NCBI GenBank assembly: GCA_907163375.1
Contig: CAJQUW010008650.1
Span: 1 to 64,000, forward strand
Source of the DNA: Prostheceraeus crozeri
Lineage: Eukaryota; Platyhelminthes; Polycladida; Euryleptidae
Direction: 5' to 3'
DNA: 64,000 nt
The position numbers and the translations under genes were made by a program. Below the pieces are notes generated by a model that worked only from the letters and a program-made list of their open reading frames with translations, ran no database searches and was not told where the DNA came from. This document shows positions 2,979 to 57,243 of the stretch, one piece after another; position 1 is the first letter of the stretch, and each line of letters starts with the position of its first letter.

Positions 2979-3551
2979 TTAACTCTTCATTCGGAAATGG
3001 AGTGTGATACTTGTCACAGCATCTTTATGAAAAGGAATCAACGCACCAGCATCGTCATAAATGGCAATATCAATTTGTGGGATGTAGTTTGATTTCAGCT
3101 TTGTATAATGCACTTTCTTGAAAGTATGCTCAGATAAAATACTGCAGCTCTTTGGCTGGTATGGTATCATTGCTAGCAATGGAGCTTCAACATCTCCCAC
3201 ACGTACATCTTCACCAATATTGGAATATATCTGAAAATAGTTAATACGACGCGATAGCGACATGTCTGCGCTAGCTTTGGTTACAGTACCACTTTTAAAG
3301 ATATTTTGGTCAAAACCCAAAATGTCCATTAGAGTTTTATCCATAATTAGTTCAATACCTTTTCCACTTATAGTGAGAGACAAAGTACCTTCTTTTTCAG
3401 AAAATGAAATATGTTGGTCATTAATCACTTCATTTAAATAATCTACAACCAATTTAACTGAAGTAATAATGCGAGGCATCAACACTCTTGTTTCATGTAA
3501 GATACCACCGAAAGGCTCTACACACACTATCTGTATAAAGATACGGACCAT
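2979..3551 (-). CDS. Fibre-like/minor structural protein, C-terminal domain (copy A)
   Basis: The 190-residue frame contains NYFQIYSNIG, then VRVGDVEAPLLAMIP, and ends ALIPFHKDAVTSITLHFRMKS. The GDVxAPLLRxxP block followed by a PF...TLHFR terminus is the standard C-terminal signature of the F54H12.2-like Polinton protein family. It overlaps frame 3527-3820 by 25 bases in another phase, so copy A (2979-4399) is one gene split by two frameshifts. It lies on the same strand as the capsid module. A virion role is inferred. Confidence 0.55.
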   Translation of the reverse strand: MVRIFIQIVCVEPFGGILHETRVLMPRIITSVKLVVDYLNEVINDQHISFSEKEGTLSLTISGKGIELIMDKTLMDILGFDQNIFKSGTVTKASADMSLSRRINYFQIYSNIGEDVRVGDVEAPLLAMIPYQPKSCSILSEHTFKKVHYTKLKSNYIPQIDIAIYDDAGALIPFHKDAVTSITLHFRMKS

Positions 3552-3820
3552 TCTGTATCAAATTGATTTGACCTTTCACATGGTAAATGTTGCATATCAG
3601 ATTTTCCATGAACAGCTGCAGAACGATGTCGCAAGAACTGATGAAAATCTTTTGAACAAACTAATACTAGATCATCATCATTTAATTTACTTATTGCAAT
3701 ATGATTAGATGATTTAATATAAGTCAATGTTGCCACTTGTTTACCATCAACTCGAAGGAGATAATTAAATTTCTTCAATAATGTTTCAGGAGTCATGTTT
3801 TTCTTTCTTGGCTTAATCAC
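3527..3820 (-). CDS. Fibre-like protein, middle part (copy A)
   Basis: A 97-residue frame bridging the N-terminal domain at 3830-4399 and the C-terminal domain at 2979-3551. It includes an LLKKFNYLLRVDGKQVATL strand/helix segment and a DLVLVCSKDFHQFLRH segment. The ATG is 9 bases past the stop of 3830-4399, so it is most simply the continuation of that gene after a frameshift. No function of its own is recognisable. Confidence 0.4.
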   Translation of the reverse strand: MIKPRKKNMTPETLLKKFNYLLRVDGKQVATLTYIKSSNHIAISKLNDDDLVLVCSKDFHQFLRHRSAAVHGKSDMQHLPCERSNQFDTEWSVSLYR

Positions 3821-3829
3821 AATCTTCTT

Positions 3830-4399
3830 TCACCAACGTCTTCTCATTTTTTGAATAAGATCTACATAATAAGCTTCCTCTCGATATATTAACTGTTTAT
3901 GACCACTTATGTGGTAATTAACGTTAAAATTATCATAGCTTGTCAAGGCGCTAGCGAGGTAACCTAAATCATTTCTTAAACTTGGACTTAAACCAACAAT
4001 CCAATCTTTCTCAACTACATGATGTATATAAGTATAATCATCATTGTGTGGAGTAAATTGGGCAATATGTTTACACGCTTTATTCAAGAAATCATATATA
4101 AACTTTTTACATGATAAGAGATCTTTCTTTGGCCACTGTGGAATGTATACTCGGCAGCCCTTTTCACATTGGTAAGCAGCTGTACGTCTCATATTAATAG
4201 TCATCACCTCATGATCAAAAGTATAGACACAGTTGCTATAAACAAGTTGAGTGACACCCACTTCCCAATTCCCATTTAGCTGTTGTGCATGATCAATGGG
4301 AGTAGAAAAGACTGCGGCTCGATTACTAGTAAATCTCTTTGTAGCCGCATTGCTAAGCAAAATATGATAAAACGACATTTTTATATTGCTAATCTGCAA
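3830..4399 (-). CDS. Fibre-like/minor structural protein, N-terminal domain (copy A)
   Basis: The 189-residue product has the family signature near its start: LLSNAATKRFTSNRAAVF followed by LNGNWEVGVTQLVYSNCVY, equivalent to LPSNASM...LEGEWEVGVSSICYDSN at 2314-2901. The rest is a mixed strand-rich sequence with a C-terminal SGHKQLIYREEAYYVDLI segment. Together with 3527-3820 and 2979-3551 it makes a three-part gene with the usual domain order of the family. The first methionine is uncertain: MQISNIKM could start at the second Met just before SFYHILLSN. A structural role is inferred from association with the capsid genes. Confidence 0.55.
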   Translation of the reverse strand: MQISNIKMSFYHILLSNAATKRFTSNRAAVFSTPIDHAQQLNGNWEVGVTQLVYSNCVYTFDHEVMTINMRRTAAYQCEKGCRVYIPQWPKKDLLSCKKFIYDFLNKACKHIAQFTPHNDDYTYIHHVVEKDWIVGLSPSLRNDLGYLASALTSYDNFNVNYHISGHKQLIYREEAYYVDLIQKMRRRW

Positions 4400-4413
4400 C
4401 TTTGCATAACATC

Positions 4414-4769
4414 ATGAAGACTTGGATTTTGGACTCTCTACAATATATCAGAGTTGATCGTGATGGAAACGTACATTTCAATATTCTCATGGTCATACAT
4501 CAAGAGGAATTACATTAACATGGCGACAATTTGTCAACCTCAATGATATCATGAGGGATTTGGAATATTTTGAAACATTAAGATTCATCTCCTTGGGTGA
4601 TCAAGTTTGGCATCAACATTACAGAAATGAAATTCAAATCTACCATTCTCATTCCGCAAACTGTTTCTCATTTCGCAAATACAATTGGGAGAAGTATAGA
4701 AGATACATACATCGCTCCATCATGACATTTATTCGTCGTGAGTTCATCGCCCTACTATGCAAATCTTAA
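4414..4769 (+). pseudogene. Upstream partner of TBP-like gene, first tandem copy (frameshifted)
   Basis: An ATG at 4414 opens with a WILDSLQYIRVDRDGNVHF segment that parallels WKLDSLQRIETDHDRNVYF of the 4792 copy. The frame then breaks near 4470 and continues in another phase (open from about 4500, ORF 4551-4769) with IMRDLEYF, GDQVW and NWEKYRRYIHRSI. The 4792 copy has IMKDLKYF, GNRIW and SWEKYKRKVHRSI. It is therefore a tandem duplicate carrying one frameshift and ending before the disordered tail. The strand-rich first half plus an ALS..HF..L helix weakly recalls the PC4 single-strand-binding/coactivator fold, but this is only an impression. Confidence 0.5.
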
Positions 4770-4791
4770 TCAGACATGACTATAACGCACC

Positions 4792-5061
4792 ATGAGTTGG
4801 AAATTAGATTCCCTACAACGTATTGAAACGGATCATGATCGAAACGTCTATTTCAAAGATTCAACTGGAAATGTGAGAAGAGAGTTTGCTTTATCTTATC
4901 GTCATTTTCAATCTCTACATCATATCATGAAGGACTTGAAATACTTCTATATGAAAAGACATTCACGTATTGGAAATCGCATCTGGCTGCGCGTCAACAA
5001 TCGGCGAATTCAACTCTATCATTCCCAACTTCATACTAACTTTCACATTTCATCAAGGTAG
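4792..5061 (+). CDS. Upstream partner of TBP-like gene, N-terminal part (second copy)
   Basis: The 89-residue frame contains DRNVYFKDSTGNVRREFALS, RHFQSLHHIMKDLKYF and GNRIWLRVNNRRIQLYHSQ. It stops at 5061, but the conserved continuation (SWEKYKRKVHRS) sits in the next phase at about 5058 onwards, inside the 4970-5446 frame. A single frameshift, or splicing, would be needed to connect them; the sequence AAGGTAGT at the break could also be a donor. The first tandem copy reads through this point without a break, supporting the frameshift view. Function unknown; a PC4-like DNA-binding fold is a low-confidence guess. Confidence 0.45.
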   Translation: MSWKLDSLQRIETDHDRNVYFKDSTGNVRREFALSYRHFQSLHHIMKDLKYFYMKRHSRIGNRIWLRVNNRRIQLYHSQLHTNFHISSR

Positions 5062-5446
5062 TTGGGAAAAGTATAAAAGGAAGGTACATCGCTCAATTTA
5101 CTCATTCTTTCATCATGAAGCGCCATCGCTACACACCATCGTCAACATTCTCTCCGTCGCTTCAGACTCTACACCAAAATCGATCTCACAACATTACACC
5201 AACAGCTTCCAAACAGCAAGTATTACCCGGTCGTCCTCAAATGTTAGTGGTGAAGATGAACAATTCACGGAATCTTCAACTCTTCCCAAATGGGACTGTA
5301 CAGATTCTCGGCGCCCTTTCTCATTCATCGGCGCAGTCAATGCGCTTAGAGCTACAAAGACTACTACGTCGGATATGGAAGAGGGAGAGGTGTGTGATGT
5401 CGAATCTGACTGTGGACAATATGGTGATCTCTACTCAATTGAGTGA
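4970..5446 (+). CDS. Overlapping-frame protein (C-terminal part of TBP partner)
   Basis: This frame overlaps the TBP-like gene over 5115-5446 in a different phase. From SWEKYKRKVHRSIYSFFHH onwards it is homologous to the plus-strand frame 46810-47250 of element 2: SWEKYKR.VH, then a Ser/Thr-rich low-complexity segment, then RRPFSFIGAVNALRA (compare RKPFSFREAVHVLRS), then an acidic tail with SIE. The two elements are clearly diverged, yet both keep both frames open for about 330 bases. The segment before about 5058 is likely not the natural N-terminus; 4792-5061 supplies that. Function unknown. Confidence 0.55.
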   Translation: MEIASGCASTIGEFNSIIPNFILTFTFHQGSWEKYKRKVHRSIYSFFHHEAPSLHTIVNILSVASDSTPKSISQHYTNSFQTASITRSSSNVSGEDEQFTESSTLPKWDCTDSRRPFSFIGAVNALRATKTTTSDMEEGEVCDVESDCGQYGDLYSIE

Positions 5447-5663
5447 CAGTCTATCATTTTTGAAGATTCGTACCAGCAGTTACAGTTTGTGTTATGAACC
5501 CGAACTTTTTCCTGCAGCTCTCATTAGTTGTTGGTTACCTGTGCATGTGGCAATCTTTCATAATAGTAAAGTGATCATTACTGGACTAAAATCTCATGTA
5601 CAAGCAAATATGATCCTAGACTATCTCATTGAGTATGTACGTACCCAGCGGATTGTAAAATAA
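5115..5663 (+). CDS. TBP-like protein (TATA-binding protein fold)
   Basis: The 182-residue product shows both TBP repeats. Repeat one runs from about residue 39: RPQMLVVKMNNSRNLQLFPNG then VQILGALS, equivalent to the R...LIF.SG...TGA core of TBP. Repeat two has VDNMVIST, then YEPELFPAALI, a diagnostic TBP motif (YEPELFPGLIYRM in cellular TBPs), then VAIFHNSKVIITGLKS, equivalent to LIF.SGK.V.TGAK. Cellular TBP repeat length (about 90 residues each) fits. The first 38 residues are basic and unrelated. It faces the protease gene convergently; AATAAA-like sequence follows at 5660-5667. It would plausibly bind TATA-type promoters of the element. A homologue is at 46910-47449. Its first 332 bases overlap another conserved frame. 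Confidence 0.8.
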   Translation: MKRHRYTPSSTFSPSLQTLHQNRSHNITPTASKQQVLPGRPQMLVVKMNNSRNLQLFPNGTVQILGALSHSSAQSMRLELQRLLRRIWKRERCVMSNLTVDNMVISTQLSDSLSFLKIRTSSYSLCYEPELFPAALISCWLPVHVAIFHNSKVIITGLKSHVQANMILDYLIEYVRTQRIVK

Positions 5664-5689
5664 AAAACAATTTTTCCAACATGATGTTT

Positions 5690-6151
5690 TTATTTCAAAT
5701 CATGATAGAACTTACAAATCATTTTTTCATTAGAGGATGGATTACATGAAAAGTTTTGAATAACAGATGCAAATCGAGATACATGTAAACGTCTTAAGAT
5801 GAAGTACAGTACAAAAGCACCACACGTTGATGAAAGTGGATGTTGTAGTATGCGTTCATTTCGCTGATATTGACGCGTATGTTTTCTCAACCACTGCTGT
5901 GTTGGTATATTTGGAGGTTGAGCAAGAGAGTCAAATAGTTCACCACGTCGGTCTTCTCCAATAAAGATCGCTTTCCAATGCTCACCGCCTAAATTCTGTG
6001 AATGAGTGTTTAGCACAATAAAGATGGGATAGTGATTTACTGCAGGTGGTAAGGTATCGAGTGAATAGACATTATCGAAAGCTTTCAACGTCGCTTCGTC
6101 TGCATTACGCTGCACTTTAGTCTTAATATCGTCAGCAGTCAACCAACTCAT
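5690..6151 (-). CDS. Adenain-like cysteine protease (maturation protease)
   Basis: The 153-residue protein has the catalytic layout of adenovirus-type proteases (C5/Ulp1-like fold): GGEHWKAIFI with the catalytic His, then GELFDSLAQPP with the acidic residue, and STCGAFVLYFILRRL with the nucleophilic Cys. The N-terminus (LKAFDNVYSLDTLP) matches the usual F.GVF..D.LP region. Its length is a little under that of adenain. Its ATG overlaps the stop of the capsid gene in a TAATG arrangement at 6151. It would cleave virion precursors; the two basic neighbours carry candidate QRGG/QKGG sites. The frame is intact and all key residues are visible. Confidence 0.88.
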   Translation of the reverse strand: MSWLTADDIKTKVQRNADEATLKAFDNVYSLDTLPPAVNHYPIFIVLNTHSQNLGGEHWKAIFIGEDRRGELFDSLAQPPNIPTQQWLRKHTRQYQRNERILQHPLSSTCGAFVLYFILRRLHVSRFASVIQNFSCNPSSNEKMICKFYHDLK

Positions 6152-7401
6152 TAACGATTATACTGAAGAATCACGTCACGATACTTTGTAATTTCAATAT
6201 TTGAATCGAAGACTGCATAAATTAATACATTGATCGTCTCAGGTAGTGTTCTTTTGAACGTTAAATCCAAACGAATATTATGAGGCACGTTCGCTTGACG
6301 ATAGGGTGCACTAATATCGCTGTCAGCAGTCAAATCAAATGCATAAATAGTATATCCACTCTTAAACTCTTTCATAGTCAGTCCGTTGGTGTCATCCGTA
6401 TTGTAAAAGCCAAAAACATCCATAAAATCAACATAACTGCGCATAAATTGATCTGAAGCAAAATCTGGTTTGTAGGGTGGACCAGGATGACTCACACCAT
6501 TTACACGTAAAGCAATTTCACTTAACTGATTGTGTTTAAAATTGAAAGGATTCTTCTTTATATTACCATTAAATGCATCATTTTCAACCATTGCCACCAT
6601 GAGGAGCTTCGGTGCTTCCGATGGAAAGAGGCCATCTTTCATGAAACTCTTTTGATCTTTCGGAATTGTAAAGGTGAGAAGCTTTGTATGCTGAATGGGG
6701 TAAATGGCATTTTGGCGGTTAAGGCCTTCAGCATGCCCTCTAATGACACTTGGATTCGGTACTACTCGACGAATGTAAAGTGCAATATCTTCCACATGAA
6801 TTCTAAAATTGTCAACTTTAGCAAATGCATTCAGCGCAAATTCAGGCTTATTCAATGTCAGCTTGAGTCGCATGCTGGTATTACACAGTAAAAACTTTGA
6901 CTGTCTAAAGAAGTCTAAATTCAGCGGACCATATAGCTGACATACTCTACTATCTTTAATCATAGCAGATCGCTTTACAAAGCCACTGTTTGTTTCAACA
7001 TCAAATTTTCCTGCTTCATCTCTGTACCATCCCATGGCTTCCATATGACTTTTTTGTGCTGCTGGATGAAACTGTGATACATGATTGAAATATGATTTAT
7101 AGGGATAATCGCTTTGACCACCTTCCACTTGCTGCTCTCCAATCGTTAGAGAAACATCACGAAGTAATGTAGTCAATGGTAAATTGTTCAGTCCAACTTT
7201 ATGTGCATCGTCAATAGCAGTTCCATCTGCTTGCTGAATTCTAAACCTCAAATCAAGCATCGCATAACTCAAATCTATGTAGTCATCACTACCACCAGGA
7301 ATAACAAATTCAATGGGGCCAGCATTCTCAGCTGTTCGAGGATGATAATCTACAATACTTGAACTAAGAATATCTGTCTGTATGGCTTGTTGATCGAACA
7401 A
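6151..7401 (-). CDS. Major capsid protein (hexon-like, double jelly roll)
   Basis: The 416-residue product has the Polinton/adintovirus capsid pattern: an N-terminal QTDILSSSIVDYHPRT segment, then PIEFVIPGGSDDYIDLSYAMLDLRFRI, the typical strand pair of the first jelly roll (Ser/Tyr-DL...L.V.h), and later NQLSEIALRVNG, FMRSYVDFMDVFG and a C-terminal NIRLDLTFKRTLPETINVLIYAVFD, as in major capsid C-termini. Somewhat shorter than many Polinton capsid proteins. Located between the basic core protein and the protease, overlapping the latter by one base. Frame intact, so the capsid function may have been preserved until recently. Confidence 0.88.
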   Translation of the reverse strand: MFDQQAIQTDILSSSIVDYHPRTAENAGPIEFVIPGGSDDYIDLSYAMLDLRFRIQQADGTAIDDAHKVGLNNLPLTTLLRDVSLTIGEQQVEGGQSDYPYKSYFNHVSQFHPAAQKSHMEAMGWYRDEAGKFDVETNSGFVKRSAMIKDSRVCQLYGPLNLDFFRQSKFLLCNTSMRLKLTLNKPEFALNAFAKVDNFRIHVEDIALYIRRVVPNPSVIRGHAEGLNRQNAIYPIQHTKLLTFTIPKDQKSFMKDGLFPSEAPKLLMVAMVENDAFNGNIKKNPFNFKHNQLSEIALRVNGVSHPGPPYKPDFASDQFMRSYVDFMDVFGFYNTDDTNGLTMKEFKSGYTIYAFDLTADSDISAPYRQANVPHNIRLDLTFKRTLPETINVLIYAVFDSNIEITKYRDVILQYNR

Positions 7402-7429
7402 ACAAAAACCGAAGTTTTACACTCCATGA

Positions 7430-7885
7430 TTAGAAGTTATAGCAGCGTCGTCGTTTAGCGCCTGATGAATGATTAGAGCCTCTGCGACGTTTGCGTGAAT
7501 GCCTTTTGACTGAAGATCGCACCTTACCAGCTCCGCGATGTTTCCTCCTTCCTTTATTCATTCGTTTAGGTGATTTCTTTCCTTGAGTAACACCAGCAAT
7601 GGTCTGCTTCAATGTTTTTAAACCGCGTTCCTTCCCACGATTCAACAAACTGCTCTTAAAACTTCTACCTCTGGAAAGATCACTAGCAACATCACCAGCA
7701 AAGCCAACGGCATTACTTAAAACATTTCGTTTTAAAGATCTACCGACATTGGATATGAGAGGTGCTACAACAGATTTCAGTGCACCAAGTATGCTACCTC
7801 CACGTTGGCGGCGAGCACCGATGTAAATTTGTCCTCCGCCACTTACATAGGAGGGTCGTGAATAAAATGAGGCAGTTGGATTCAT
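7430..7885 (-). CDS. Basic core/minor capsid precursor (adenovirus pX/Mu-like)
   Basis: A 151-residue, strongly basic protein. It starts NPTASFYSRPSYVSGGG, followed at about residue 28 by RQRGGSILGALKSVVAPLIS, an apparent protease cleavage context plus amphipathic helix, and ends in an Arg/Lys-rich tail (RRKHRG, KRHSRKRRRGS, KRRRCYNF). Such proteins sit next to the capsid gene in adintoviruses and resemble adenovirus core proteins. It likely condenses packaged DNA and may be matured by the neighbouring adenain-like protease. The QRGG-x(2-3)-L..L motif recurs in the basic protein at 10533-10874. Confidence 0.7.
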   Translation of the reverse strand: MNPTASFYSRPSYVSGGGQIYIGARRQRGGSILGALKSVVAPLISNVGRSLKRNVLSNAVGFAGDVASDLSRGRSFKSSLLNRGKERGLKTLKQTIAGVTQGKKSPKRMNKGRRKHRGAGKVRSSVKRHSRKRRRGSNHSSGAKRRRCYNF

Positions 7886-7926
7886 AGCTCAAACCCTAAA
7901 CATTGTTAGTTACAACTTTGCATGAA

Positions 7927-9147
7927 TCACTGTCGATCACTTAGATGAAAGATGTCGGCACGACGCATCCAAGAGTTCATACTTGAAGGATAACCAGTCC
8001 ATTTAACAAGACACCATTCTTCACCTTGCCGTTTTTTACATCGAATGATTTTCTCTACCAAATATGTTTCACTTTCAGTGACTACCTCAATCTCATCGCG
8101 GTAAAAGCTACCCTCAATTTCTTCATTATCGTAATCTTTCAACTTGTAGGTGGTCGGAGAGTCTTTTTGATTAATCCTTGATACTGTAAATACCTCCTCT
8201 GTCCAATTCGGAAGGTACCCTTTAGCAAAAACACTTTTCACTTTTGAGATACGAACTTTATCGCCAATTTTCACATCACTTTTCACATGAGTGCGTTTAC
8301 GTTGGAATGATTCGCGCACTTTATCTACATTGTCAGCATTTACATCTACTGGTCTGAGTCCAATAGAACGATGGATAGAGTGATTGTAGGCATGGAGTGT
8401 ATCTTGTAGAACCTTTGTCCAATTTTGTGTCAAGTTGGCAGTAAAATGTCGCCACAAGCGATTTTTTAATGTGCGATTAAAACGTTCAACGAGTGCAGCT
8501 TTATAAGCGCTCTTTACACTAAACAACTCAATGTCATGCCTCTCAAATAATCTTGTCACATGCTGATTTTCAAACTCTTTTCCTTGATCACTCTGAATTC
8601 TTTTTGGAATGCGACCTTCTCGAAAAATTGTTTGGAATGCTTTTGCTACTCCTTTCCCTTCTTTAGTTTTTAAAGGTTGAGCCCACGCATAACGCGAGAA
8701 AATATCAATGACGGTTAAAATAAAATTATTGCCCGAGTTATGTTTTGAAATGGAGGCAACATCGCACAAATCTGCTTGCCACTGTTCATCGATGTCATGA
8801 ACAATATAATGGCGGGTGCGGTACTTCTTTTTCGCTTGTTTGTGGAGTGTATAGGTAGCCTGACCCTTTAACCATCGTTTCACTTGTGATTGTGGAAGAC
8901 CACTCGCTTTTGATAATTTCTTGATAGATGCAAATCCTGCCGGATGTTTTACATCATAATAGATTGACTTCAAACGTTCAGTCGATGACGGCTGACTCTT
9001 TTTCCTCCTTCTCATCTTTTTTCTTTCTTGCCTTTCTACATTTACAACAACTGCAGCATTTAGCTTTAGCGGTTTTGCGATCGTGTTCACATTGCTTAGG
9101 GGTTTCATTATGAGAGCTGGCGCAGCAAGTGCAAGTGACAACGACAT
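7927..9147 (-). CDS. Retroviral-type (DDE) integrase with C-terminal chromodomain
   Basis: The 406-residue product contains an HTH-like region (ASIKKLSKASGLPQSQVKRW), then the rve core: QADLCDV with the first catalytic Asp, IQSDQGKEF with the second, and ALVERFNRTL with the Glu, 33 residues after the second Asp by my count. Residues about 360-400 form a chromodomain: VEKIIRCKK...WCLVKWTGYPSSMNSWMR. This is the integrase class that defines Polintons and generates 6-bp target duplications. The annotated ATG gives a leader in the same frame, but a cysteine-rich frame beginning at 9193 overlaps it. True N-terminus uncertain. All catalytic residues present. Confidence 0.9.
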   Translation of the reverse strand: MSLSLALAAPALIMKPLSNVNTIAKPLKLNAAVVVNVERQERKKMRRRKKSQPSSTERLKSIYYDVKHPAGFASIKKLSKASGLPQSQVKRWLKGQATYTLHKQAKKKYRTRHYIVHDIDEQWQADLCDVASISKHNSGNNFILTVIDIFSRYAWAQPLKTKEGKGVAKAFQTIFREGRIPKRIQSDQGKEFENQHVTRLFERHDIELFSVKSAYKAALVERFNRTLKNRLWRHFTANLTQNWTKVLQDTLHAYNHSIHRSIGLRPVDVNADNVDKVRESFQRKRTHVKSDVKIGDKVRISKVKSVFAKGYLPNWTEEVFTVSRINQKDSPTTYKLKDYDNEEIEGSFYRDEIEVVTESETYLVEKIIRCKKRQGEEWCLVKWTGYPSSMNSWMRRADIFHLSDRQ

Positions 9148-9194: not shown

Positions 9195-9887
9195 TTAATA
9201 GTCTGAGAACATGTATTTCCTAGGAGGAGCTGTTTTACGTTTTCCTTTTACCAGTTTTAGTGGCGATGTAGATCTACGTCGAGTTCTTCCTCTTGTTTGC
9301 TTAGTGAGTGTGGGAGGGGATGTAGCAGGTGACGTCTTAAACCAATTTGTTGGCATTTTCATCGCCTGAAGCATTGGAGTAGTAGCCACTGTTGAATCAA
9401 GTTCTTTCAATGTCTCATTATTTAAAGCAAATTTTGGCACATTATGCTTTTTCAATAGTTTAAGAAAGTATGACCAACCAGGTGGAACATAGCCCTGACG
9501 GCGCTTTCTACGTGTCGCATACTGAATCAAGTCTTCATAACGTGAAGCATCAATCACTTTATTTTCATCTGTAATGATTTCTCCTCTATCATTTACATTG
9601 AGATGGGGTTCAATACTGTTGAAAAGAGATATGGCATGTGCGCGAGATGCTAAAGGTGTAGCAGTCGATACAGAGTCACGCATCTTATTCTTCAAGTTTT
9701 TCAATTGCTCAACAGTTTCCGATTGTAATAATACAGCACGATGTGGATCTTTGATGTGAACATTTTGCTGATAATCTATTTCTTTCCTATACATTTGATT
9801 TGCAAGAGGTTGCTTTACTTGCTGCATGGCAGTCAATTGTACATATTCATCCTGAGGAATAACAATCATGCGAGAATAAGAACTCAT
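9195..9887 (-). CDS. Conserved Polinton/adintovirus protein of unknown function
   Basis: The 230-residue product begins SSYSRMIVIPQDEYVQL, a start type familiar from Polinton proteins located beside the ATPase. It has a central SLFNSIEPHLNVNDRGEII helix-turn, an RRKRRQGYVPPGWSYFLKLL segment, and a Pro/Arg/Ser-rich basic C-terminus (TRGRTRRRSTSPLK). The ATG overlaps the ATPase stop (ATGA) at 9884-9887. Its position between ATPase and integrase, in an overlapping cluster, points to a virion or packaging role, but no known domain is recognisable to me. Confidence 0.6.
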   Translation of the reverse strand: MSSYSRMIVIPQDEYVQLTAMQQVKQPLANQMYRKEIDYQQNVHIKDPHRAVLLQSETVEQLKNLKNKMRDSVSTATPLASRAHAISLFNSIEPHLNVNDRGEIITDENKVIDASRYEDLIQYATRRKRRQGYVPPGWSYFLKLLKKHNVPKFALNNETLKELDSTVATTPMLQAMKMPTNWFKTSPATSPPTLTKQTRGRTRRRSTSPLKLVKGKRKTAPPRKYMFSDY

Positions 9888-10549
9888 AGTTTGTAGATAA
9901 TCATGGGAGTTTTCAAAATATCACTTCGAAATCTAAATTCTTCCGGACACTCTTGCGTAAAGTCAATGAATAAGTAACCGTATGGTTTTTCAGTAGCTGC
10001 TTGAAAAATTTCAATTAAGGCTTTTGATCCTCTGGGTGCAACTTGTCGCGCTAAAATTTCAAATTGACTTTTATCTCGCGGATTCTTGAAAATAGCATAA
10101 TAGTGTGTATTCAGGTTTCGTGTACGAGCTTCTTTTCCATCAGGAAACAAATTTTGTGTGATATAGATGATAAAGCACCTTTTATGATGTGCTGCGCGAG
10201 TGAACATATCTGTAACATCTTTTGAATTCTTACTTTCTTTTAATAAATCATCCAATACAACAACATCATTAGACTGAAGTTTATCCACTGCAATAATTCC
10301 TTCATGTCGAATAAAGTTGCGACTTTGCAATTCCTGAAACAGCGACGGTTGATAAATACCATAACACCAAATCACTCGATTGATAGGTTCCCTAAACAAC
10401 TCCCTTCTTTTATCCAATAAATTCAGCGTGAAAACAGTTTTACCTGCATGAGATGGACCTGATACAGTCAGAACTTTATCGCATTGAAGTCTGAAATCCA
10501 TTTTATTACTTTGAGACTCAACATTTGCATAATTAACGCTTAGAGCCAA
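9884..10549 (-). CDS. FtsK/HerA-type DNA packaging ATPase
   Basis: The 221-residue protein has a Walker A motif VLTVSGPSHAGKTVF near residue 27, a Walker B motif SNDVVVLDDLL near residue 90, a sensor-like FIIYITQNLF, and a helical C-terminal half. Size and motif spacing match the A32-like packaging ATPases of Polintons and adintoviruses, which translocate DNA into the capsid. It overlaps the upstream basic protein by 17 bases and the downstream gene by 4 bases, indicating a compressed transcription unit. Frame and catalytic motifs intact. Confidence 0.9.
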   Translation of the reverse strand: MALSVNYANVESQSNKMDFRLQCDKVLTVSGPSHAGKTVFTLNLLDKRRELFREPINRVIWCYGIYQPSLFQELQSRNFIRHEGIIAVDKLQSNDVVVLDDLLKESKNSKDVTDMFTRAAHHKRCFIIYITQNLFPDGKEARTRNLNTHYYAIFKNPRDKSQFEILARQVAPRGSKALIEIFQAATEKPYGYLFIDFTQECPEEFRFRSDILKTPMIIYKL

Positions 10550-10874: not shown

Positions 10875-10941
10875 TTTAACGTTTCGCCATTTTCCGTGTT
10901 AGTCTTTGCTAAAACCTATCTTTACCACATTTGCATAGGTA

Positions 10942-13439: not shown

Positions 13440-14862
13440 ATCAAGCTGATTCGAAATCTAACTCCGTCGTTTTTCGCCAATGTCCCAAAATCGTAAATGG
13501 CGTCTCACATCTAAACGAAGGCAGATAGGAACAAGCCGATTGTTTCACTGAATTTGTCTCACTCTTAGCTTTCAAACGAGCTATCGCACGACAAAATCCG
13601 TCCACTGGAAGCCAAAATCGAAGCAAGCTGTCCAGAGGGGGGGGGACGTCAGTGAAATTTCAAAGTTTGATGAAACAAACTTTGGTAAAGGTCCCAGGTC
13701 GAAATTCCACACTTTGGAAAATTTTTAATTTTTCCCATACAAAGTCACTCTGACACTTAGGATTTTTTTCAGGTGAGCTCCGACCTAAAATCTTGTAACC
13801 GCTCTAACTTTTGAACGGCTGCTCCGATTGACTCGCAACGAAAAATGCGGTCGAGCAGTGTTTCATCCTCTTTCCAATGCAAGTCGAACGAACAAAATCC
13901 GTCCACTAGAACCAAAGTTAGATCAAAGGGGGGGGGAGTCAGCGAAATTTGATGAAACAAACTTTGGTAAAGGTCCCAGGTCGAAATTCCACACTTTGGA
14001 AAATTTTTAATTTTTCCCATACAAAGTCACTCTGACACTTAGGATTTTTTCAGGTGAGCTCCGACCTAAAATCTTGTAACCTCTCTAACTTTTGAACGGC
14101 TGCTCCGATTGACTCGCAACGAAAAATGCGGTCGAGCAGTGTTTCATCCTCTTTCCAATGCAAGTCGAACGAACAAAATCCGTCCACTAGAACCAAAGTT
14201 AGATCAAAGGGGGGGGAGTCAGCGAAATTTGATGAAACAAACTTTGGTAAAGGTCCCAGGTCGAAATTCCACACTTTGGAAAATTTTTAATTTTTCCCAT
14301 ACAAAGTCACTCTGACACTTAGGATTTTTTCAGGTGAGCTCCGACCTAAAATCTTGTAACCGCTCTAACTTTTGAACGGCTGCTCCGATTGACTCGCAAC
14401 GAAAAATGCGGTCGAGCAGTGTTTCATCCTCTTTCCAATGCAAGTCGAACGAACAAAATCCGTCCACTAGAACCAAAGTTAGATCAAAGGGGGGGGGGAC
14501 GTCAGCGGAAAATTTTTATCTCCGATTGCTTTCAAATTCACCATACAGATGCAGAATTTCACGCTGAATCCGAATCTGACCTCCGTTTTCACATCCGAGG
14601 CTTCGTTTGGACACTACACACCAAAACATACCACAGTTTAACCAAGACAACCTAGACGGTCGCCCACGTCAACCTAGACGGTCGCCCAAGTCCACCAGGC
14701 GGTCGGACACAGACACCCGAGACTCACACACTGGCGGACCAGAGGGGGGGGGGACGGCAGCAGAACCTCGACGGCACATCACGACACTGGCGGACCAGAG
14801 GGGGGGGACTCAGCGATGGCGGCCATCTTGCGCTATCTGGTGTTCGCCGTTTTCTTACTACT
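13440..14862. repeat. Terminal repeat region of element 1 with 281-bp tandem array
   Basis: 13440-13640 is an inverted match to 42020-42205 in the left end of element 2 (shared words such as CGCCAATGTCCCAAA, AATTTGTCTCACTCT and GCTTTCAAACGAGCTAT). A tandem array follows: the word GATGAAACAAACTTTGG begins at 13669, 13951 and 14231, giving units of 282 and 280 bp, with the third unit ending near 14508. Every unit contains a run of 7-10 G followed by (AC)GTCAG. 14510-14862 has further degenerate units, including two GGCGGACCAGAG-G(n) blocks, and ends in ACTACT. The short ORFs inside the array are repeat artefacts. Confidence 0.75.
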
Positions 14863-21987: not shown

Positions 21988-23542
21988 GCTCACCTTGTCG
22001 ACCCTTGTCCCGCGTATCCGAAGGTAGGTCCAGTCCTCTTTTTCCATTCCTTCCGGTTATGGACCAGGGAGGCATCCACTCCTTTTGCCTTCATGTCGGC
22101 GGTTATTGTCGCTGTCCAGGTTTTCTTCGGGCGGCCTCTACCTCTTCTTCCTTCCACTTGCAGACGTGATGCTTTCTTAAGGGGATAGCTCTCTCCGCGA
22201 CGCTGCACATGACCAAACCATGACAGCCTTCTTGCTCTTGCCACTTCTTGAATAGGGGCTACCTCCACATTAGATCTTATTTCTTCATTGGTCTTCCGGT
22301 CCAAGCGTGTGTAGCCCTGCATCCACCTTAGCATCCGCATCTCCGCCACGTGCAGCTTCTGCTCATCTGTCTTGAGAGGGGCCCAGCACTCAGAACCATA
22401 AAGGATTGCTGGCTTGATCATAGAGGAGTATACTTTGCTCTTTATCTTCAGTGGCATCCTTCTGTCACATAGCACAGGAGTCAGTCTCTTCCATGTGTTC
22501 CAGCCGCAACGTACTCGATGTGCAACATCACATGCGCTGGTCACCTCAGTATTGACCATGGACCCCAGATATTTAAAGCAGTCCACACTCTTCACCGGCT
22601 GACTCTGAATCTCCATAGTTGTTCTTCTTGGGTCGGACGACAGATATTCGGTCTTGGAACGGCTTACCCTCAGGCCCTTACTCTCAAATGCTCTCCTCCA
22701 TGCTTCCAACCTTCGCTCTACATCTTGATGACTGCTTCCAAATATTACGAGATCGTCGGCGTATAACATATCCCAGGGACCACCTCTTCTGCAATCCTTG
22801 GAAATTTCATCCATTATTACGATGAAGAGAAAAGGGCTTAAAGCTGAGCCTTGATGTAGCCCAACAGAGACAGGAAAGGCACGACTTTCACCTTGTCTAC
22901 ATCTCACTGCAGTTGTGCTGTCCCTGTACATGTCCTGTATTAAACGGATGTAGCACTCCGGTACTTCCCGTGTGCGGAGACAATTCCATATCAGCTTCCT
23001 TGGGACTGTATCGTAGGCCTTTTCGAGATCAACGAACACTGCGTGGAAAGGCTTATTTTTCTCTCTGAATGCCTCCATCGCCATTCTCAGACAAAATTGT
23101 GGGTCTGTTGTGCCAACTCCTGGTCTGAAGCCAAATTGATTGATATCCACCTCAATAAGATCACGAAGACGCTTCTCCAAAATCTTCTCCAGAATCTTCA
23201 TGGTGTGACTGAGAAGCTTGATACCGCGATAGTTGCCAACATCTTGATGGTCTCCTTTACCCTTGAAGATGGGTGTAATAACACTTTTCCGCCACGCGTC
23301 CGGTATTCTTCCCGATGTCAGTATCTCATTGAAGAGGTACACCAGAAGGTCCAAGCCGTAGTCCCCAAGCACCTTGAAAACTTCAATAGGAATGTCATCC
23401 GGTCCACAACTTTTACCCGATCTCACTTTTTTCAGTTGCTTAGCCACTTCATCCCTTGTAATCATCTCCACTGGACCCACAACAGCAGCTCCAGCAGGGA
23501 TCTCTTCATGCGGCCTTGTTTGATTAATTTGATTGAATGAAC
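21988..23542 (-). mobile_element. 5'-truncated RTE-like LINE insertion
   Basis: An 18-bp direct repeat TATTT(G/A)TAAGTAGTATGT flanks the insert at 21970-21987 and 23543-23560 with one mismatch, consistent with target-primed reverse transcription. On the minus strand the insert starts inside the reverse transcriptase domain region and ends two bases after the stop codon of the ORF, so there is essentially no 3' UTR. Confidence 0.75.
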
Positions 23543-41455: not shown

Positions 41456-42113
41456 AGTAGTAATCCCCTGACAAAATCAAGTGCAAAATGAGGAGCAATG
41501 CTGACTCATCCTCTCCTCTGGTGAGAGGAAGGAGGTCGCCAAGGATGTGATGGAAGGATGGGTCCGAGAGGAGAAAACGGGTCCCTACCCCCTTCCCTCT
41601 GGAAGGAAGGAAGCAGGAACTGTGAGGCAAGGGGTGGGAAGGAAGTCGGTGGGAATGTGGGAAGGCTAGAGTGAGAAAAGGTGGGTGTTGGTGGTTTTGG
41701 GATGAGAAAAGTTGGAAATCGTCATGAAAGAGGGTTCGGATGTGAAATTGGAGGTCAGATTTGGAATTTACGTGAAATTTTGGGTAGGGAAGGAAGGCAG
41801 GGAGGAGTTTTCCTGAGAGACAAGGGGTGGAATCTCTGAAAACGACAGAGTTGGAAAAGTCAGGTTTTTTTGATGTTTTGGGATTAGAAAAGTCGTTTTT
41901 CGACATGAAGGAGGTCTCGGATGGCAAAACGGAGTGCAAATTCGGACGTTTTGGCCAATGTTGGGTTAGGAAGGATGTTTCCAGCGACATCGGAGAGAAG
42001 AAGTTCTGACCTCCCCCCTCCCGGCAGCGATCTTCCAACTTTGGCTGTAGGGATCGTAGAAAGTCGTGCAATAGCTCGTCTGAAAGCTGAGAGTGAGACA
42101 AATTCAGTGGAAA
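41456..42113 (+). repeat. Left terminal inverted repeat of element 2
   Basis: Positions 41456-41856 are nearly identical to the complement of 56842-57243. 41857-42010 match the complement of about 56370-56540, and 42010-42113 match one unit of the right-hand array (GCTGAGAGTGAGACAAATTC). It contains a single G-tract motif, written CCTCCCCCCTCC on this strand, at about 42009-42022. The 254-codon minus-strand ORF over this region is a by-product of the repeat. Confidence 0.85.
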
Positions 42114-42260
42114 ACATGGCTTGCTCCTATCTGCCTTCGTATAGATGTGAGACGTCATTGAAAATTTGGGACATTGGCGAAAATACGACAGAGTTAGAAT
42201 TTTTACGAAAATCACTCTAGCGAGTGAACCAAGCCTCGGACGGGAAAATAGAGACTAGAT

Positions 42261-42563: not shown

Positions 42564-42889
42564 CATGCAGGTGAGCGCGTAGTGTTTCATTTTGCATCCT
42601 ATTCCGCAGAGACGATACATGATCCCAAAGATTTCTATCAGCGACACATAGCGAAAATTGCATCTCGACTAGATTCATTTCATGAGCATGGATCCAACTT
42701 GCTCTTATGTTGCATAAAACACATTCATATTCAACTCAAAGAGCTAAACTAGATTTGACTACAAGATTTGGGAAAAGCATTCATGAGTCAGTCGTCCGCG
42801 TGCCTCCTTTTTCCTGCCGCAACGAAGTCAGGGGAGAAACGGAGGTCTCTGATTGGGTCTCATAGTGTCAAATGGGATTCTCAGGAGAC

Positions 42890-42897
42890 TATAAAAG
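42890..42897 (+). promoter_or_regulatory. TATA box of the element 2 early region
   Basis: TATAAAAG preceded about 35 bases upstream by GATTGGG (inverted CCAAT). A CT-rich initiator-like stretch follows at 42905-42935. A GTGAGT donor-like site near 43015 and a CGTTACAG acceptor at 43372 suggest a 5' UTR intron of about 350 bases. Confidence 0.45.
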
Positions 42898-44206: not shown

Positions 44207-44228
44207 TTAAGTCTTTTCGATATTGTAG

Positions 44229-46699: not shown

Positions 46700-47250
46700 A
46701 GATAACTCTATAGCGCTTTCATCTACGAAGGTTACATCGCGCAATCCTACCCAACTCTTGTCGTGTCATTAACATAGGAGACGGCATTGTATTTATTCGC
46801 ATTCAAGAGATGATTCTACATAATGATCACTGCTACATCGTGATTCCAAAACCCTCATGGGAAAAGTATAAAAGGGAAGTTCACTCAACCCTCATGTCAT
46901 TTATGAGTCATGCTTCCCATCCACATCATCAATGCCATGCGCGAAATGAATCTCAGAAGAGACATCGATTTAGAACTGTTGCACACCCATCTACCCGATT
47001 CAGTCTATCATCGCGGTCGTCCACAAATGTTGGTCATTCGCATGAGCAACGGTCGAAATCTTCAAATCTTTCGCTGCGGCAAAATCCAAGTCCTAGGAAA
47101 CCTTTCTCATTTCGTGAGGCAGTCCATGTGTTACGAAGTCGTCAAGAAAATGCGAACACTCATGCCTCATTTTCGCCTCAGTCCCCTGACACTGAAGAAT
47201 ATAGTAGTGTCTGTTCAATTGAAGATGTTAGTGAATCTAGCCAACATTAA
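46700..47250 (+). CDS. Overlapping-frame protein preceding/overlapping TBP-like gene (5' part decayed)
   Basis: The open frame 46810-47250 has SWEKYKREVHSTLMSF, a Ser/Arg-rich stretch, RKPFSFREAVHVLRSRQ, and an acidic SPDTEEYSSVCSIEDVSES end; it matches the 4970-5446 frame of element 1. Upstream, in-phase codons (about 46765-46809) still resemble the GNRIWLRV..RIQLYHS region of element 1, but the first half is damaged by frameshifts. Codons 46910-47250 overlap the TBP-like gene in another phase. Function unknown. Confidence 0.5.
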
Positions 47251-47449
47251 ATCCAGTAATCATTGTATATTTTATGAAACTGAACTCTTTCCTGCTGCTT
47301 TGATTCGGAAGTGGCATCCTGTACATATTGCAGTGTTTCACAACGGACATTGTATCATGACTGGTTTACGTGATATCAGTAAAGTAGCTGACATTGTTGA
47401 ATCGCTAATGCGTTATCTGTATGAGTCACAGTTAATAGAATCGTGTTAA
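46910..47449 (+). CDS. TBP-like protein, second copy
   Basis: The 179-residue product aligns over its length with 5115-5663: RGRPQMLVIRMSNGRNLQIF, KIQVLGNLSH (repeat 1), LKNIVVSVQL, FYETELFPAALIRKW and VAVFHNGHCIMTGL-type strands (repeat 2). The diagnostic YEPELFP of TBP is FYETELFP here. Both repeats and the linker are present, with no stops. Its ATG sits inside the overlapping frame at the same codon environment (after a ...SF.xH segment) as in element 1. The gene lies directly before the large intergenic region and the convergent PolB gene. Confidence 0.78.
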   Translation: MLPIHIINAMREMNLRRDIDLELLHTHLPDSVYHRGRPQMLVIRMSNGRNLQIFRCGKIQVLGNLSHFVRQSMCYEVVKKMRTLMPHFRLSPLTLKNIVVSVQLKMLVNLANIKSSNHCIFYETELFPAALIRKWHPVHIAVFHNGHCIMTGLRDISKVADIVESLMRYLYESQLIESC

Positions 47450-48385: not shown

Positions 48386-51300
48386 TCATCCAGCATCGCT
48401 TGTCTTCCAAGCTGAGAGACCTCGTTTCTTAAACGTCGTTGTTCTGACTTGATGCGACTGTGATTTTAAGATGGTCATTTCTACTTTTTTAATTTTAAGT
48501 GAATCTAAGGCATCTTGATAGTCCATATGTGTCATTTTTCTAACGATTGACTTCGAGATGCCTTTCGCCCGTTTTATAGAAAGCTCTGAGGATTTTAGCT
48601 TCATGGAGTACATCTTGGGGCGAAGCAAGATCATCTCCTCTATCTGTTTGCCGGCACACTCATCCTTGAAGCAGCCAAGCTTCGCTTTATTTGTGGTAGA
48701 GTAAAGCGGATGGTCAGTGGGATAGTTGGAACTATCAAACTTGGGTGCTAAATATTTTAAAATGTCTTCCTGCATGACTTGGCTAGTGGTTGTCAAAGCT
48801 AGGAAGAAGCTGTCTGTATCGCCTCCTACTAATTCCACATGTTGGATCAATGGACAAGACTTAAATGTGTGGTAAAATAACTTGTACATTTCTAACTTGG
48901 AGTGATCCAAGACAGCTTGACCGACATAAATGGGCTTGCTAAGTTCTACTTTGGATTTTAGCATTTTAAAACCAGTAATGTCGTCGAAAATTACATCATG
49001 GTGACAAAACAACGGCGAGCGACATAACTTGATGCTCGTTTCCGGATCAGTCACGATACCATAGTCCATGCGCTTTCTTGCATCCTCCATGGTTTTACCG
49101 AAGGGGCATTATTCTTAAATTTAAAGAAGTCCTTTTCGAAAGGATTCTTGGATTCAGCCCGTTTCTTACTATTAAATTCTATATACGGTTTTAGAAAGGG
49201 CTTCTGCCTAAACTGGATAGCGCGATGGACTTTGTCAAGTTGCATCCCTATACCTAGATAGAATTCGAGGATGGAATAGTGCACGATGTAATGCTGTTTG
49301 TTCAATTGGGTGAGCAACAACTTCCTAGTGGGTTTATATTTTAAGTCATTTTCCACCTCATATTGCTTATTGTGTTCTTCCATAAAGGGAGAGAACATAT
49401 CTGGACTGACTATGCCAGATTCGGGTGCGAGAGGAAAATCAACTGTCCTATTCTCAATACATTCTGGATAGATGAGGTCGACTTCAAATAAATGACCTAT
49501 GTCGGCCTCATCTCCCAGTGCCATGATGTGTGCTGGATTGGAGAAGTATTCAATGTCATGGGGCTCTACCCATTGGAAGTCAGACTGTGGCAAAGGCTTG
49601 GAGAGTGCACTCCCATACAAATTATTTTGGTCTATGTACATTAAATGCGTGGTTGATCCTATGTCTTGGGTGCTGTTGACAACATGTTTGTTGACAAATG
49701 TTAAGCCACCCCTAATACCACGTTCAAATAACGTGTACATTTCTGCATCTTGCAGTAAATGAATGCTCTCTTTCGTCATCTTGAAGGCTGACTGATAGGA
49801 CAGACCCGGCAGACTAACAAAATGGACGGGGTCTAAGGCGTCCTGTTCTAATGTGACTTTCCTAAAAGTCTCAAACACGTCAGCCAACAGATAGACGTCT
49901 AATTTTAAGTAGGCAAGCATGTAGTCACCAAAAGTGCGACACCTAAATTCTAACCATGCTTGCTCTGCATGCCTATAGTCATCCAGCGAACAGTCCTCAC
50001 CCGTCAAATCATTTTAAATTTATCGATGGACGGAAAGGATGTTTCTTTCAATGTGTCCATTGAACTAAAATAACTATAAGGAAACTCCCCTTTCCGTCGC
50101 ATCAGACTGTTACTTATGTTGGGATAGTCTTTCTTTAAATGTTGAGTGAGGGGAAGTGTTTCTAAATTATTAGCCAACGCGGCTAAGGAAGAAGACATAA
50201 ATTGAAAACTATCTAGAAACTTTATGTCATAGAAGACAGGCTTCCCCTCCTTCGTCTTATCGACTTGTACTTTAGCAGTGATGCACATAAATTTTTCCTT
50301 ACTTTGTGCAATCACTTTGGATGACCAGGATATCATTCTACCGAATCCATGGCGAATGATGATGTCAGCATGATAACATTTAAAGTTATGGAAGATGACG
50401 GGGAGCGTTCGGCGTTTGAGCCTAAGTTTCATATTACATTTACTGCATAAGGCAGACCTAAATTTACCACTGAGATGGCAATGGCCCCTCACTTTCTTAT
50501 GTTGCTGATCATCAAAGGATGAACAGCAGCGGGGACATTTTGTGGCCCTATCAAATTGAAGTTTATCGGCTTCTGTGAAGCACATGGGTTTCCTAGAGAG
50601 TCCGTTGATGAAAACGGACTTTCCTATCTAAAAAGTTGAGGAAGTTTTCAACGCACTCCTCGCCTTGCCACACATGCACCTTATTTTGATTCCTATAATA
50701 TTGATGCCAAACTTCATAACAATGGCTGCTGGCTCATGACTTAGATCTTCTTGTTCAATATAACATTCAATGTCCGCATGGATGGTACATATGGGACTGA
50801 GCTCATTGCCGTTTTCCTCATACCTATAAAATTTATCTTTGGGCATGACTTCCATTTGAAGTTTACCCCGAGAGCACCACTCGTAATGCTGTTCAAAAAT
50901 GGTTTTGACCTAAAACGTCGTATGCAGTGATCACCGTAATAATGTTCGTTGTCACTACTTTGTTGGTGGCGATGCAACTTTGAAATTTTGGGAATGCCAC
51001 AATAATGCCACTCTGGGTGGTTGTCGCTATAGACTAGGAGAAGATTGACAACCCGGTCGAAGTTACTTTGACGGTTGTTATACCTAACGCCCTTTAGACA
51101 TTTTTCCCAGAGTTGGATGACGATCTTAATGTTCTTGAGTTTTTCAAATTGGGCGATGCCTTTAAAATCTAATGTGTTGACATCTAACCCGTCAAACTTA
51201 AGCTCATCCTGCAATTCACGATATTTAGTGATTCGTTCACGATTTATACCTATATAATTATAGTGAAGAATGGAGAGGACGGCATACTTGAAACACTGGG

Positions 51301-51550
51301 ACTGACACTCTACATTGATGACAGCCTTTTTGTCAGCCAGTGCTTTAGGGAGGGTGAAACAACCGCTCCCTTCCAAATTTTCTAAAAGATTGATTTTAAT
51401 GGCTACTTTCTCTATCCCATCAAAGACCAGTCCGCTGTCTCTTTCATTGAATTTATTTAAGTTGCTGACGAGATAGGTTGCATGTCTCTCTATCCACTCG
51501 TTTACATCACCTATGAGATCAGCAGCACAGGAGGCTATCCAAATGGTCAC
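48386..51550 (-). pseudogene. Protein-primed type family B DNA polymerase (PolB), frameshifted
   Basis: Five overlapping minus-strand frames spell a Polinton PolB in order. 50741-51550: N-terminal domain (QSQCFKYAVLSILHY) and a basic finger. 50628-50855: Exo I (IHADIECYIE). 50004-50585: zinc-type CPRCCSSF/CSKCNMK and FHNFKCYHADI, where Exo II normally has an Asp after GY. 49051-50007: Exo III (YLKLDVYLLADVFE), Pol A (YIDQNNLYGSALSKPLP), start of Pol B. 48386-49090: Pol C (GGDTDSFF), thumb. Breaks are near 50860, 50600-50628, 50006 and 49090, the last inside motif B. The C-terminus is truncated relative to 861-1103. An upstream open segment to about 51780 in the same phase is separated by one TGA, and the first frame begins with GTG, so the start is lost. 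Dead copy. Confidence 0.88.
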
Positions 51551-55621: not shown

Positions 55622-57243
55622 TTTCCACTGAATTTGTCTTACTCTCAGCTTTCAAACGAGCTATTGCACGACTTTGTACCATCTCTAGAACGAAAAGTTG
55701 GAAGATCGCTGCCGAGGGGGGGGAGGTCAGCACTTTTTCTCTCCGATTGAGCTGGAAAGAAGTTCCTAGACCCAACATTGACCGAACCGTCCGAATTTGC
55801 ACTCAGTTTTCCCATCCCAGCACTCCTTCATGTCAAAAAACGACTTTTCTCATCCCAAAACATCCAAAACCTGACTTTTCCAACTCTGACGTTTTCCTGC
55901 CATTTTCCTCCCTAAAATCAGGAAAATAAGACCAAACTGAGCTTTCCACTGCTTTTTTTTCACTCTCAGCTTTCAAACGAGCTATTGCACGACTTTGTAC
56001 CATCTCTAGAACGAAAAGTTGGAAGATCGCTGCCGAGGGGGGGGAGGTCAGCACTTTTTCTCTCCGATTGAGCTGGAAAGAAGTTCCTAGACCCAACATT
56101 GACCGAACCGTCCGAATTTGCACTCAGTTTTCCCATCCCAGCACTCCTTCATGTCAAAAAACGACTTTTCTCATCCCAAAACATCCAAAACCTGACTTTT
56201 CCAACTCTGACGTTTTCCTGCCATTTTCCTCCCTAAAATCAGGAAAATAAGACCAAACTGAGCTTTCCACTGAATTTGTCTCACTCTCAGCTTTCAAACG
56301 AGCTATTGCACGACTTTGTACCATCTCTAGAACGAAAAGTTGGAAGATCGCTGCCGAGGGGGGGGGGGAGGTCAGCACTTTTTCTCTCCGATTGAGCTGG
56401 AAACATCCTTCCTAACCCAACATTGGCCAAAACGTCCGAATTTGCACTCCGTGTTCCCATCCGAGACCTTCATGTCGAAAAACGACTTTTCTCATCCCAA
56501 AACATCAAAAAAACCTGACTTTTCCAACTCTGACGTTTTCCTGCCATTTTCCTCCCTAAACCCAAGAAAATAGGACCAAACTGAGCTTTCCACTGCTTTT
56601 TTTTCATTCTTAGCTTTCAAATGAGCTATCACACGACTTTCTACGATCTCTAACGCCAAAGTTGGAATTCTCGTTCCAGAGGGGGGACGTCATCGAAATT
56701 TTTCTCTCCAATGTCGCTGGAAACATCCTTCCTAACTCAAAATTTCACGTTGAGTCCGTATTTGGCCTCCAATTTCACATCCGAGGTCTCCTTCATGCCG
56801 AAAAACGACTTTCTCATCCCAAAACCACCAACACCCACCCTTTTCCAACTCTGTCGTTTTCAGAGATTCCACCCCTTGCCTCTCAGGAAAACTCCTCCCT
56901 GCCTTCCTTCCCTACCCAAAATTTCACGTAGATTCCAAATCTGACCTCCAATTTCACATCCAAACCCTCCTTCATGACGATTTCCAACTTTTCTCATCCC
57001 AAAACCACCAACACCCACCTTTTCTCACTCTAGCCTTCCCACATTCCTACCGACTTCCTTCCCACCCCTTGCCTCACAGTTCCTCCTTCCTTCCTTCCAG
57101 AGGGAAGGGGGTAGGGACCCGTTTTCTCCTCTCGGACCCATCCTTCCATCACATCCTTGGCGACCTCCTTCCTCTCACCAGAGGAGAGGATGAGTCAGCA
57201 TTGCTCCTCATTTTGCACTTGATTTTGTCAGGGGATTACTACT
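55622..57243 (-). repeat. Right terminal inverted repeat of element 2 with 321-bp tandem array
   Basis: The word CTATTGCACGACTTT begins at 55661, 55982 and 56303 (period 321), with a diverged fourth unit at 56626 (CTATCACACGACTTT). Each unit carries a run of 6-11 G followed by (A/G)GTCAGC or ACGTCATC. 56842-57243 is the nearly perfect inverted copy of 41456-41856. The left repeat has fewer array units, so unit number differs between the ends of one element. Confidence 0.88.

Follow-up and report, generated by a model that had tools for sequence, protein, structure and literature searches.

The TATA-binding protein (TBP) of archaea and eukaryotes (PF00352), the factor that marks the sites where transcription of genes begins, is built of two half-repeats folded as a saddle; of its two lobes, the C-lobe is the one that specifies the 5' portion of the TATA box. 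Beta- and gammaherpesviruses encode a protein with this fold (vTBP; UL87, or ORF24 in Kaposi's sarcoma-associated herpesvirus, KSHV) that chooses viral promoters without a canonical TATA box, ORF24 reading TATT (PMC12529657). The same paper describes ORF24 as a protein of 752 residues and four domains that keeps and needs all four phenylalanines, has lost the acidic TFIIB contacts and carries polar residues at the L114, V122 and T124 sites (Table 1 of that paper). Virus-encoded TBP-fold proteins are also found in giant viruses and mirusviruses; TBP is reported from 59% of mirusviruses (PMC10132985) and, sporadically, from mirusvirus-like mobile elements inserted in the genome of a green alga (PMC10675990). 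Little is known about transcription control in Polintons, the proposed ancestors of many eukaryotic DNA viruses. The words 'TBP' and 'TATA' are absent from the main text of four papers on Polintons, Mavericks and adintoviruses (PMC11071308, PMC11071296, PMC8097293, PMC10120064), and no description of a TBP in Polintons came up among the papers listed by the literature searches or in word searches of PMC12220804, PMC7786948 and PMC11464507. Within the literature covered by these searches, a TBP is new in the setting of a Polinton. Here we analyze a window of 64,000 nucleotides, the whole stretch from position 1 to 64,000 of contig CAJQUW010008650.1 of the flatworm Prostheceraeus crozeri, which holds two elements: E1 on the left, truncated by the contig start, and E2. 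Both carry a TBP-like gene, and we conclude that it is a genuine, conserved, two-lobed TBP encoded by a Polinton lineage, probably an animal one.

Two TBP genes in the window

An earlier note on this DNA had read the open reading frame (ORF) at 5115..5663 (+ strand, 182 aa) of E1 as a Polinton-encoded TBP, and the profile, the fold, the gene neighbours and conservation across multiple copies concur with it. PF00352 matches the ORF in two stretches (E 7.8e-12, with a score of 45.3 bits where the cut-off is 22.9), solved TBP structures in the PDB match it with E values down to 2.3e-12, and alignment and sibling copies agree, so that its product is, by sequence alone, a TBP relative. The peptides that had been cited as signs of both half-repeats, YEPELFPAALI and VAIF...KVIITGL, are present, but both lie in the second half-repeat, the first being only partly readable. 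According to the alignment, residues 1 to ~38 are out of frame with respect to relatives. E1-type sibling copies are open through this 5' region in a single frame, which indicates that the window copy is damaged there and that intact copies exist. This damage had escaped the note, as had the companion gene that overlaps the TBP gene and a second, complete TBP-like ORF, which lies in E2 (46910..47449, + strand, 179 aa). The E2 protein matches PF00352 at E 5.1e-21, again in two stretches, and shares 43% identity with that of E1 across 144 residues; both copies stand above the curated cut-off with two half-repeats each. The two-repeat saddle was recovered in the model predicted for the E2 copy (pLDDT, the predicted local distance difference test, 87.4), which Foldseek and VIA-align matched to TBPs.

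The element proteins share with cellular TBPs the two half-repeats, the saddle fold, most C-lobe DNA contacts and the ELFP stirrup. They differ in being encoded by a mobile element, in lacking an N-terminal extension, in their low identity (~14-24% in structural alignments) and in several residues, with Pro at the F99 site, Leu, Met or Phe at the T124 site and Gln at the L114 and V122 sites. The best named viral matches in Foldseek included TBPs of giant viruses, with identities of 7-19% among the 50 BFVD matches listed. Mirusviruses (PMC10132985) and the megavirus are large viruses with RNA polymerase genes, whereas the elements described here measure ~22 kb and no RNA polymerase gene was noticed in them, no search having been aimed at it. 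Like ORF24 (PMC12529657), the element TBP is polar (Gln) at two of its polar sites, L114 and V122; unlike ORF24, it is a bare core of ~180 residues that keeps the stirrup residue E188 and has lost F99. The UL87/ORF24 architecture, with a Pol II (RNA polymerase II)-binding N-domain and a C-terminal DNA-binding domain, was not found in this ~180-aa core.

Conservation and selection of the element TBPs

In the genome (2.05 Gb), the PF00352 search scored 150 of 10,983 candidates, and the matches listed were above the family cut-off and mostly in uninterrupted frames. Among 30 loci retrieved, 26 were element DNA (13 E1-type, 9 E2-type, three of a third family and one of a fourth) and four belonged to host genes, which from reading their translations we labelled as animal-type TBP exons (L001, L003) and a TBPL1/TRF2-like gene (L002, L009). 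The presence of both a TBP and a TRF2-like gene points to a bilaterian host. Among the element loci, a protease homologue was near TBP in 12 of 13 E1-type loci, in 3/3 of family 3 and in the single locus of family 4, and DNA polymerase B (PolB) was near TBP in 8 of 9 E2-type loci. A companion homologue was present in 25 of the 26 element loci, family 4 being the exception. Four loci tried as possible new families proved to be E1 and E2 copies, and so left no clean hold-out for the TATGCAA motif discussed below. Additionally, on C1944, C12493 and C2494 TBP matches come in inverted pairs separated by a few kb, which we read as inverted copies.

Beyond this genome, 346 of the 2231 candidates in a database profile search reached E<=0.001. 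The best 120 of the 346 (E<=2.7e-57) all carried PF00352 and were 37-97% identical to the E2 TBP, and the remaining 226 may include other TBPs. In a midpoint-rooted tree of 25 TBP sequences, E1 grouped with P0002-P0004 and P0017, and E2 with families 3 and 4 and P0006; from these two groupings, two or more old TBP lineages may coexist in the genome. No relative of the E1 TBP, the TBP alignment, the capsid candidate or the companion alignment was found in IMG/VR, none turned up among plasmids or in the prokaryote genome collection, and in PHROGs neither TBP nor the N-terminal companion ORF had a match.

The TBP frame appears to have evolved under constraint when compared with unused frames. The ratio of nonsynonymous to synonymous substitution (dN/dS) in 12 E1-type copies, a set that excluded L027 and the window copy, was 0.36 in the part overlapping the companion and 0.51 in the rest, against 0.88-1.45 in unused frames; in 10 E2-type copies it was 0.39 in both parts, against 0.62-1.08. 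These values bear on whether the gene could be a degenerate captured host TBP or a functionless chance ORF, as the out-of-frame first ~38 codons of the window copy and small indels in many copies might suggest. The dN/dS of 0.36-0.51, the open frames in many copies (most of the 150 matches scored had no internal stops) and the 37-97% identity to E2 among the best 120 database relatives make this explanation very improbable.

Residue conservation was surveyed in 123 sequences (E2 and 122 relatives), using the yeast numbering of Table 1 of PMC12529657. N159, V161, F190, P191 and F207 were conserved in 123/123, T215 and E188 each in 122 of 123, F116 in all 122 sequences with a residue there and N69 in 101 of the 103 with a residue. 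The F99 site was Pro in 117 of the 120 sequences with a residue, and the T124 site was Leu in 106, Met in 11 and Phe in 6 of the 123. The element protein thus retains three of the four intercalating phenylalanines that characterize the TBP family, and reads as a divergent TBP, not a canonical one. In the set of 25 sequences, Gln occupied the L114 site in 24/24 and the V122 site in 24/25, and the V71 site was Met or Leu in 20/21, so that the changes are concentrated in the N-lobe. Furthermore, the C-stirrup motif that contacts TFIIB was near-invariant across the element TBPs. Because the element TBPs preserve both C-lobe Phe, one N-lobe Phe and, among the residues that face the minor groove, the Asn and the C-lobe Thr, DNA binding looks selected.

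Promoter motifs and a proposed mechanism

Most of the TBP genes themselves are preceded by a TATA box. The box TATAAAAG lies 43 nt before the start codon in both E1 (5072..5079, + strand, inside the companion ORF) and E2 (46867..46874, + strand), and a TATA box was present at 24 of 27 located TBP starts (32 sequences, five without a located start), at -43 in E1 and E2 and at -46/-47 in family 3. The claim that TATA boxes stand before several element genes did not hold up elsewhere: TATAWAW occurred 15-120 nt before the ATG at 6 of 86 element gene starts, with about 6 expected (7.1% at random positions, 4/86 on the antisense strand), and five of these six were TBP genes. Some of the 86 starts come from sibling copies, so that they are not independent, and the family-3 TBP start L040, scored at a wrong ATG, was counted as a miss. 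A canonical TATA box was therefore rejected as a general rule for element genes. The herpesvirus-like TATTWAA was also discarded (0/35 starts, 0.7 expected).

A word count before the same number of starts, 35, pointed to TATGCAA/TAAGCAA. All five occurrences of TATGCAA in E1 sit 20-70 nt before gene starts, and the word precedes 5 of 19 non-TBP E1 starts at 30-63 nt from the start codon (raw P 6.6e-7). These occurrences are 36 nt before the companion start codon (4756..4762, + strand) and, on the - strand, 45 nt before the ORF at 2979-3551 (3590..3596), 30 nt before the ORF starting at 4378 (4402..4408), 30 nt before the first ATG (10501) of the ATPase-like ORF (10525..10531) and 63 nt before a PX-like ORF (10931..10937). 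With one mismatch allowed, the word was found in family 3 before 4/11 and 5/14 starts (P 0.026 and 0.017) in two related copies. We regard TATGCAA as a candidate motif and not as a finding.

Starting from the observed fold, conservation, gene neighbourhood and TATA position, we infer DNA binding, a target motif, TFIIB use and timing as follows. The TBP gene, with its canonical TATA box, would be transcribed early through host TBP and Pol II. Its product retains the TFIIB stirrup and most of the C-lobe, the part that specifies the 5' portion of the site, but has an altered N-lobe (Pro for yeast F99, Gln for L114 and V122, mostly Leu for T124), and could thereby recruit host TFIIB and Pol II at sites poorly used by host TBP. 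These sites would be the other promoters of the element, which have no TATA box and in E1 may be marked by TATGCAA (5/19 starts, 30-63 nt). We give slightly better than even odds (roughly 0.55) to this reading, in which the TATA box drives a gene whose product, a divergent TBP, brings host TFIIB/Pol II to the promoters of the element. If promoter recognition is indeed self-encoded, as the earlier note had proposed, its site is probably not the canonical TATA box.

Several observations weigh against this mechanism. The family 4 TBP gene and two E2 copies have no TATA box, and since the same nucleotides encode Tyr-Lys-Arg of the companion, coding constraint may account for the conservation of the box. 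The P value of TATGCAA is ~0.011 once 16,384 7-mers are taken into account, and the word is significant in E1 only, where it precedes just 5/19 starts; no exact TATGCAA was found before genes of the other element families, and with one mismatch it reached 2/14 starts in family 4 (P 0.39) and 0/7 in E2. The copies used for dN/dS were selected by TBP match score and one unused E2 frame also stood at 0.62. The C-lobe is not fully canonical either, since the L205 site is Ala in 23/24 sequences and the V213 site is Ile in 20 of the 24 with a residue. Lastly, TATGCAAAT in E1 also contains the POU/octamer word ATGCAAAT. This octamer would suit an element TBP that acts mainly on the host, titrating TFIIB or other partners or occupying host promoters and so dampening host transcription, while the element promoters use host factors such as POU proteins. 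A near-invariant C-stirrup combined with the replacement of one N-lobe intercalating residue could likewise give a competitor and not an activator. However, the retained DNA-contacting residues named above speak against such a role, as do the E2-type elements, which retain TBP where no capsid-candidate, protease, integrase or ATPase homologues were found, a pattern in keeping with a function in the expression or replication of the element; we consider a mainly host-directed action unlikely.

The companion gene and element E2

The companion gene of E1 (4792..5446, + strand) occupies two frames in the window copy and was traced with P0018 and other relatives, a structure model and VIA-align. Its C-terminal half overlaps the TBP gene in a different frame. 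The model predicts a Whirly/PUR-like N-terminal domain (VIA-align) followed by a disordered tail, and such a protein may assist melting or replication. In E2, an open frame with the C-terminal part of the companion (46714..47250, + strand) also overlaps the TBP gene. The overlapping tail showed no sign of constraint (dN/dS 0.98 in E1 and 1.55 in E2). A PC4 identity was tried for the companion and dropped: there was no Pfam match, and Whirly/PUR came up in the structure comparison instead. Upstream of the main companion gene, at 4414-4770, E1 has a further tandem copy of it in decayed form, as do E1-type siblings; in the window this copy has TATAGAAG in place of TATAAAAG and is not directly followed by a TBP gene.

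E2 is bounded by terminal inverted repeats of 404 nt, the left one (41456..41859, + strand) starting AGTAGTAATC and being 99% complementary to the right one (56840..57243, - strand); its flanks match as a target duplication at 4/6 positions. Between them, the TBP ORF adjoins a Polinton-type PolB (48386..51550, - strand, in several frames; DNA_pol_B_2, PF03175, E 3.3e-7; Endonuclease_7, E 3.9e-5). Five further E2 ORFs gave only sub-cut-off matches, to a C2H2 finger (E 5.9e-5) and to CTV_P33 (E 0.00095). Homologues of the capsid candidate, protease, integrase and ATPase were found neither in the window copy nor at the other E2 loci. E2-type elements (window 41456-57243; L038-L039; L046-L048) retain PolB, companion and TBP, with inverted termini seen in the window and on C2114, and are possibly a capsid-less derivative amplified in the genome. 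On C2114 the right terminus holds a tandem array of ~270 nt, and L046 carries E2-type PolB fragments head to head on opposite strands (4835-7999).

That PolB, companion and TBP are what E2 keeps among recognised genes, with TBP beside PolB in 8 of 9 loci, could also mean that TBP serves DNA replication or packaging and not promoter choice, for example by bending the terminal repeats for PolB, and the predicted fold of the companion resembles that of proteins binding single-stranded DNA. A near-invariant TFIIB stirrup would have no obvious use in replication, and we judge this role improbable. Recruitment of host TFIIB/Pol II to element promoters may be extended to a wider proposal, which we put forward tentatively and hold to be doubtful: that animal Polintons run their own core-promoter code, in which an early, TATA-driven TBP reads a TA[T/A]GCAA-type word at the TATA position of the other element genes and hands over host TFIIB/Pol II to them, with the Whirly/PUR-like overlapping protein as its partner.

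Gene content of E1 and Polinton identity

With Polintons, Mavericks and adintoviruses these elements share a Polinton-type PolB, an rve integrase, long inverted termini that begin with AGT and a 6-bp target duplication; they also carry candidates for the protease and the ATPase. The note had placed capsid and protease genes beside the TBP ORF. An Ulp1/adenain-like protease ORF adjoins it (5690..6151, - strand; Peptidase_C48 E 0.001, just below the cut-off), but the neighbouring 416-aa capsid candidate (6151..7401, - strand), considered as a possible double jelly-roll major capsid protein, had no Pfam match and no PDB sequence match, so the 'capsid' label rests on position and size; its one weak PHROGs match was to a phage transcription regulator (E 0.0044). 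Further along the - strand are a retrovirus-type integrase with a chromodomain (7927..9147; rve E 1.2e-10, Chromo E 6.5e-7) and a packaging-ATPase-like ORF (9884..10549; Pox_A32 E 0.02, below cut-off; weak PHROGs ATPase match, E 0.0057). The PolB of E1 itself would lie beyond the contig start. In the E1-type sibling C13101, PolB is a single ORF of 1272 codons counted from TTG, and PolB of the E1 sibling is 52-63% identical to that of E2.

C13101 and C12605 (family 3) carry homologues of PolB, companion, TBP, protease, capsid candidate, integrase and ATPase in a common order, some genes of the C13101 copy being matched across two frames. The C13101 insertion spans ~22.3 kb, with ends AGTAG... 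and CGAAGG on either side (flanks read from the sequence), and that of C12605 ~21.3 kb, with ends AGTAG..., TGTGAA on either side and inverted repeats of ~142 nt that are 100% identical. These two siblings thus show the PolB, rve integrase, terminal inverted repeats and 6-bp target duplication of Polintons. At least 100 copies of the capsid candidate in the genome (100 scored of 19,268 candidates) encode a 100% identical protein in open frames, which indicates that E1 spread recently and widely; such identity among copies on C555, C2191, C86 and at 97 further places suggests a Polinton expansion in this genome that is very recent or still under way. Towards its right end E1 holds three 280-nt tandem units that are 98% alike (13666-14507), and the E1 genes at 2314-2901 and 3830-4399 are related to each other as paralogues (33% over 67 aa) and have further relatives in both family 3 and family 4. 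Elsewhere in the window, a 530-aa ORF at 21990-23582 (- strand) resembles a non-LTR (long terminal repeat) retrotransposon reverse transcriptase, its translation having been read by eye.

Implications

A TBP of their own is carried by four element families of one genome and by over a hundred listed relatives. The near-fixed replacement of F99 by Pro, together with two N-lobe interface Gln, offers a natural test of the role of the two lobes in DNA sequence choice, and the E2-type set of PolB, companion and TBP, in which no capsid candidate, protease or integrase was found, suggests that TBP belongs to the expression/replication core. If the proposed mechanism holds, an own TBP would give Polintons promoter choice without an RNA polymerase, in parallel to the herpesvirus late-gene TBP; on the wider, doubtful proposal of a core-promoter code, a viral pre-initiation system would be contained within a ~22-kb element without an RNA polymerase of its own. 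If the proposed mechanism holds, these elements may also steer part of the host gene-reading machinery to their own genes.
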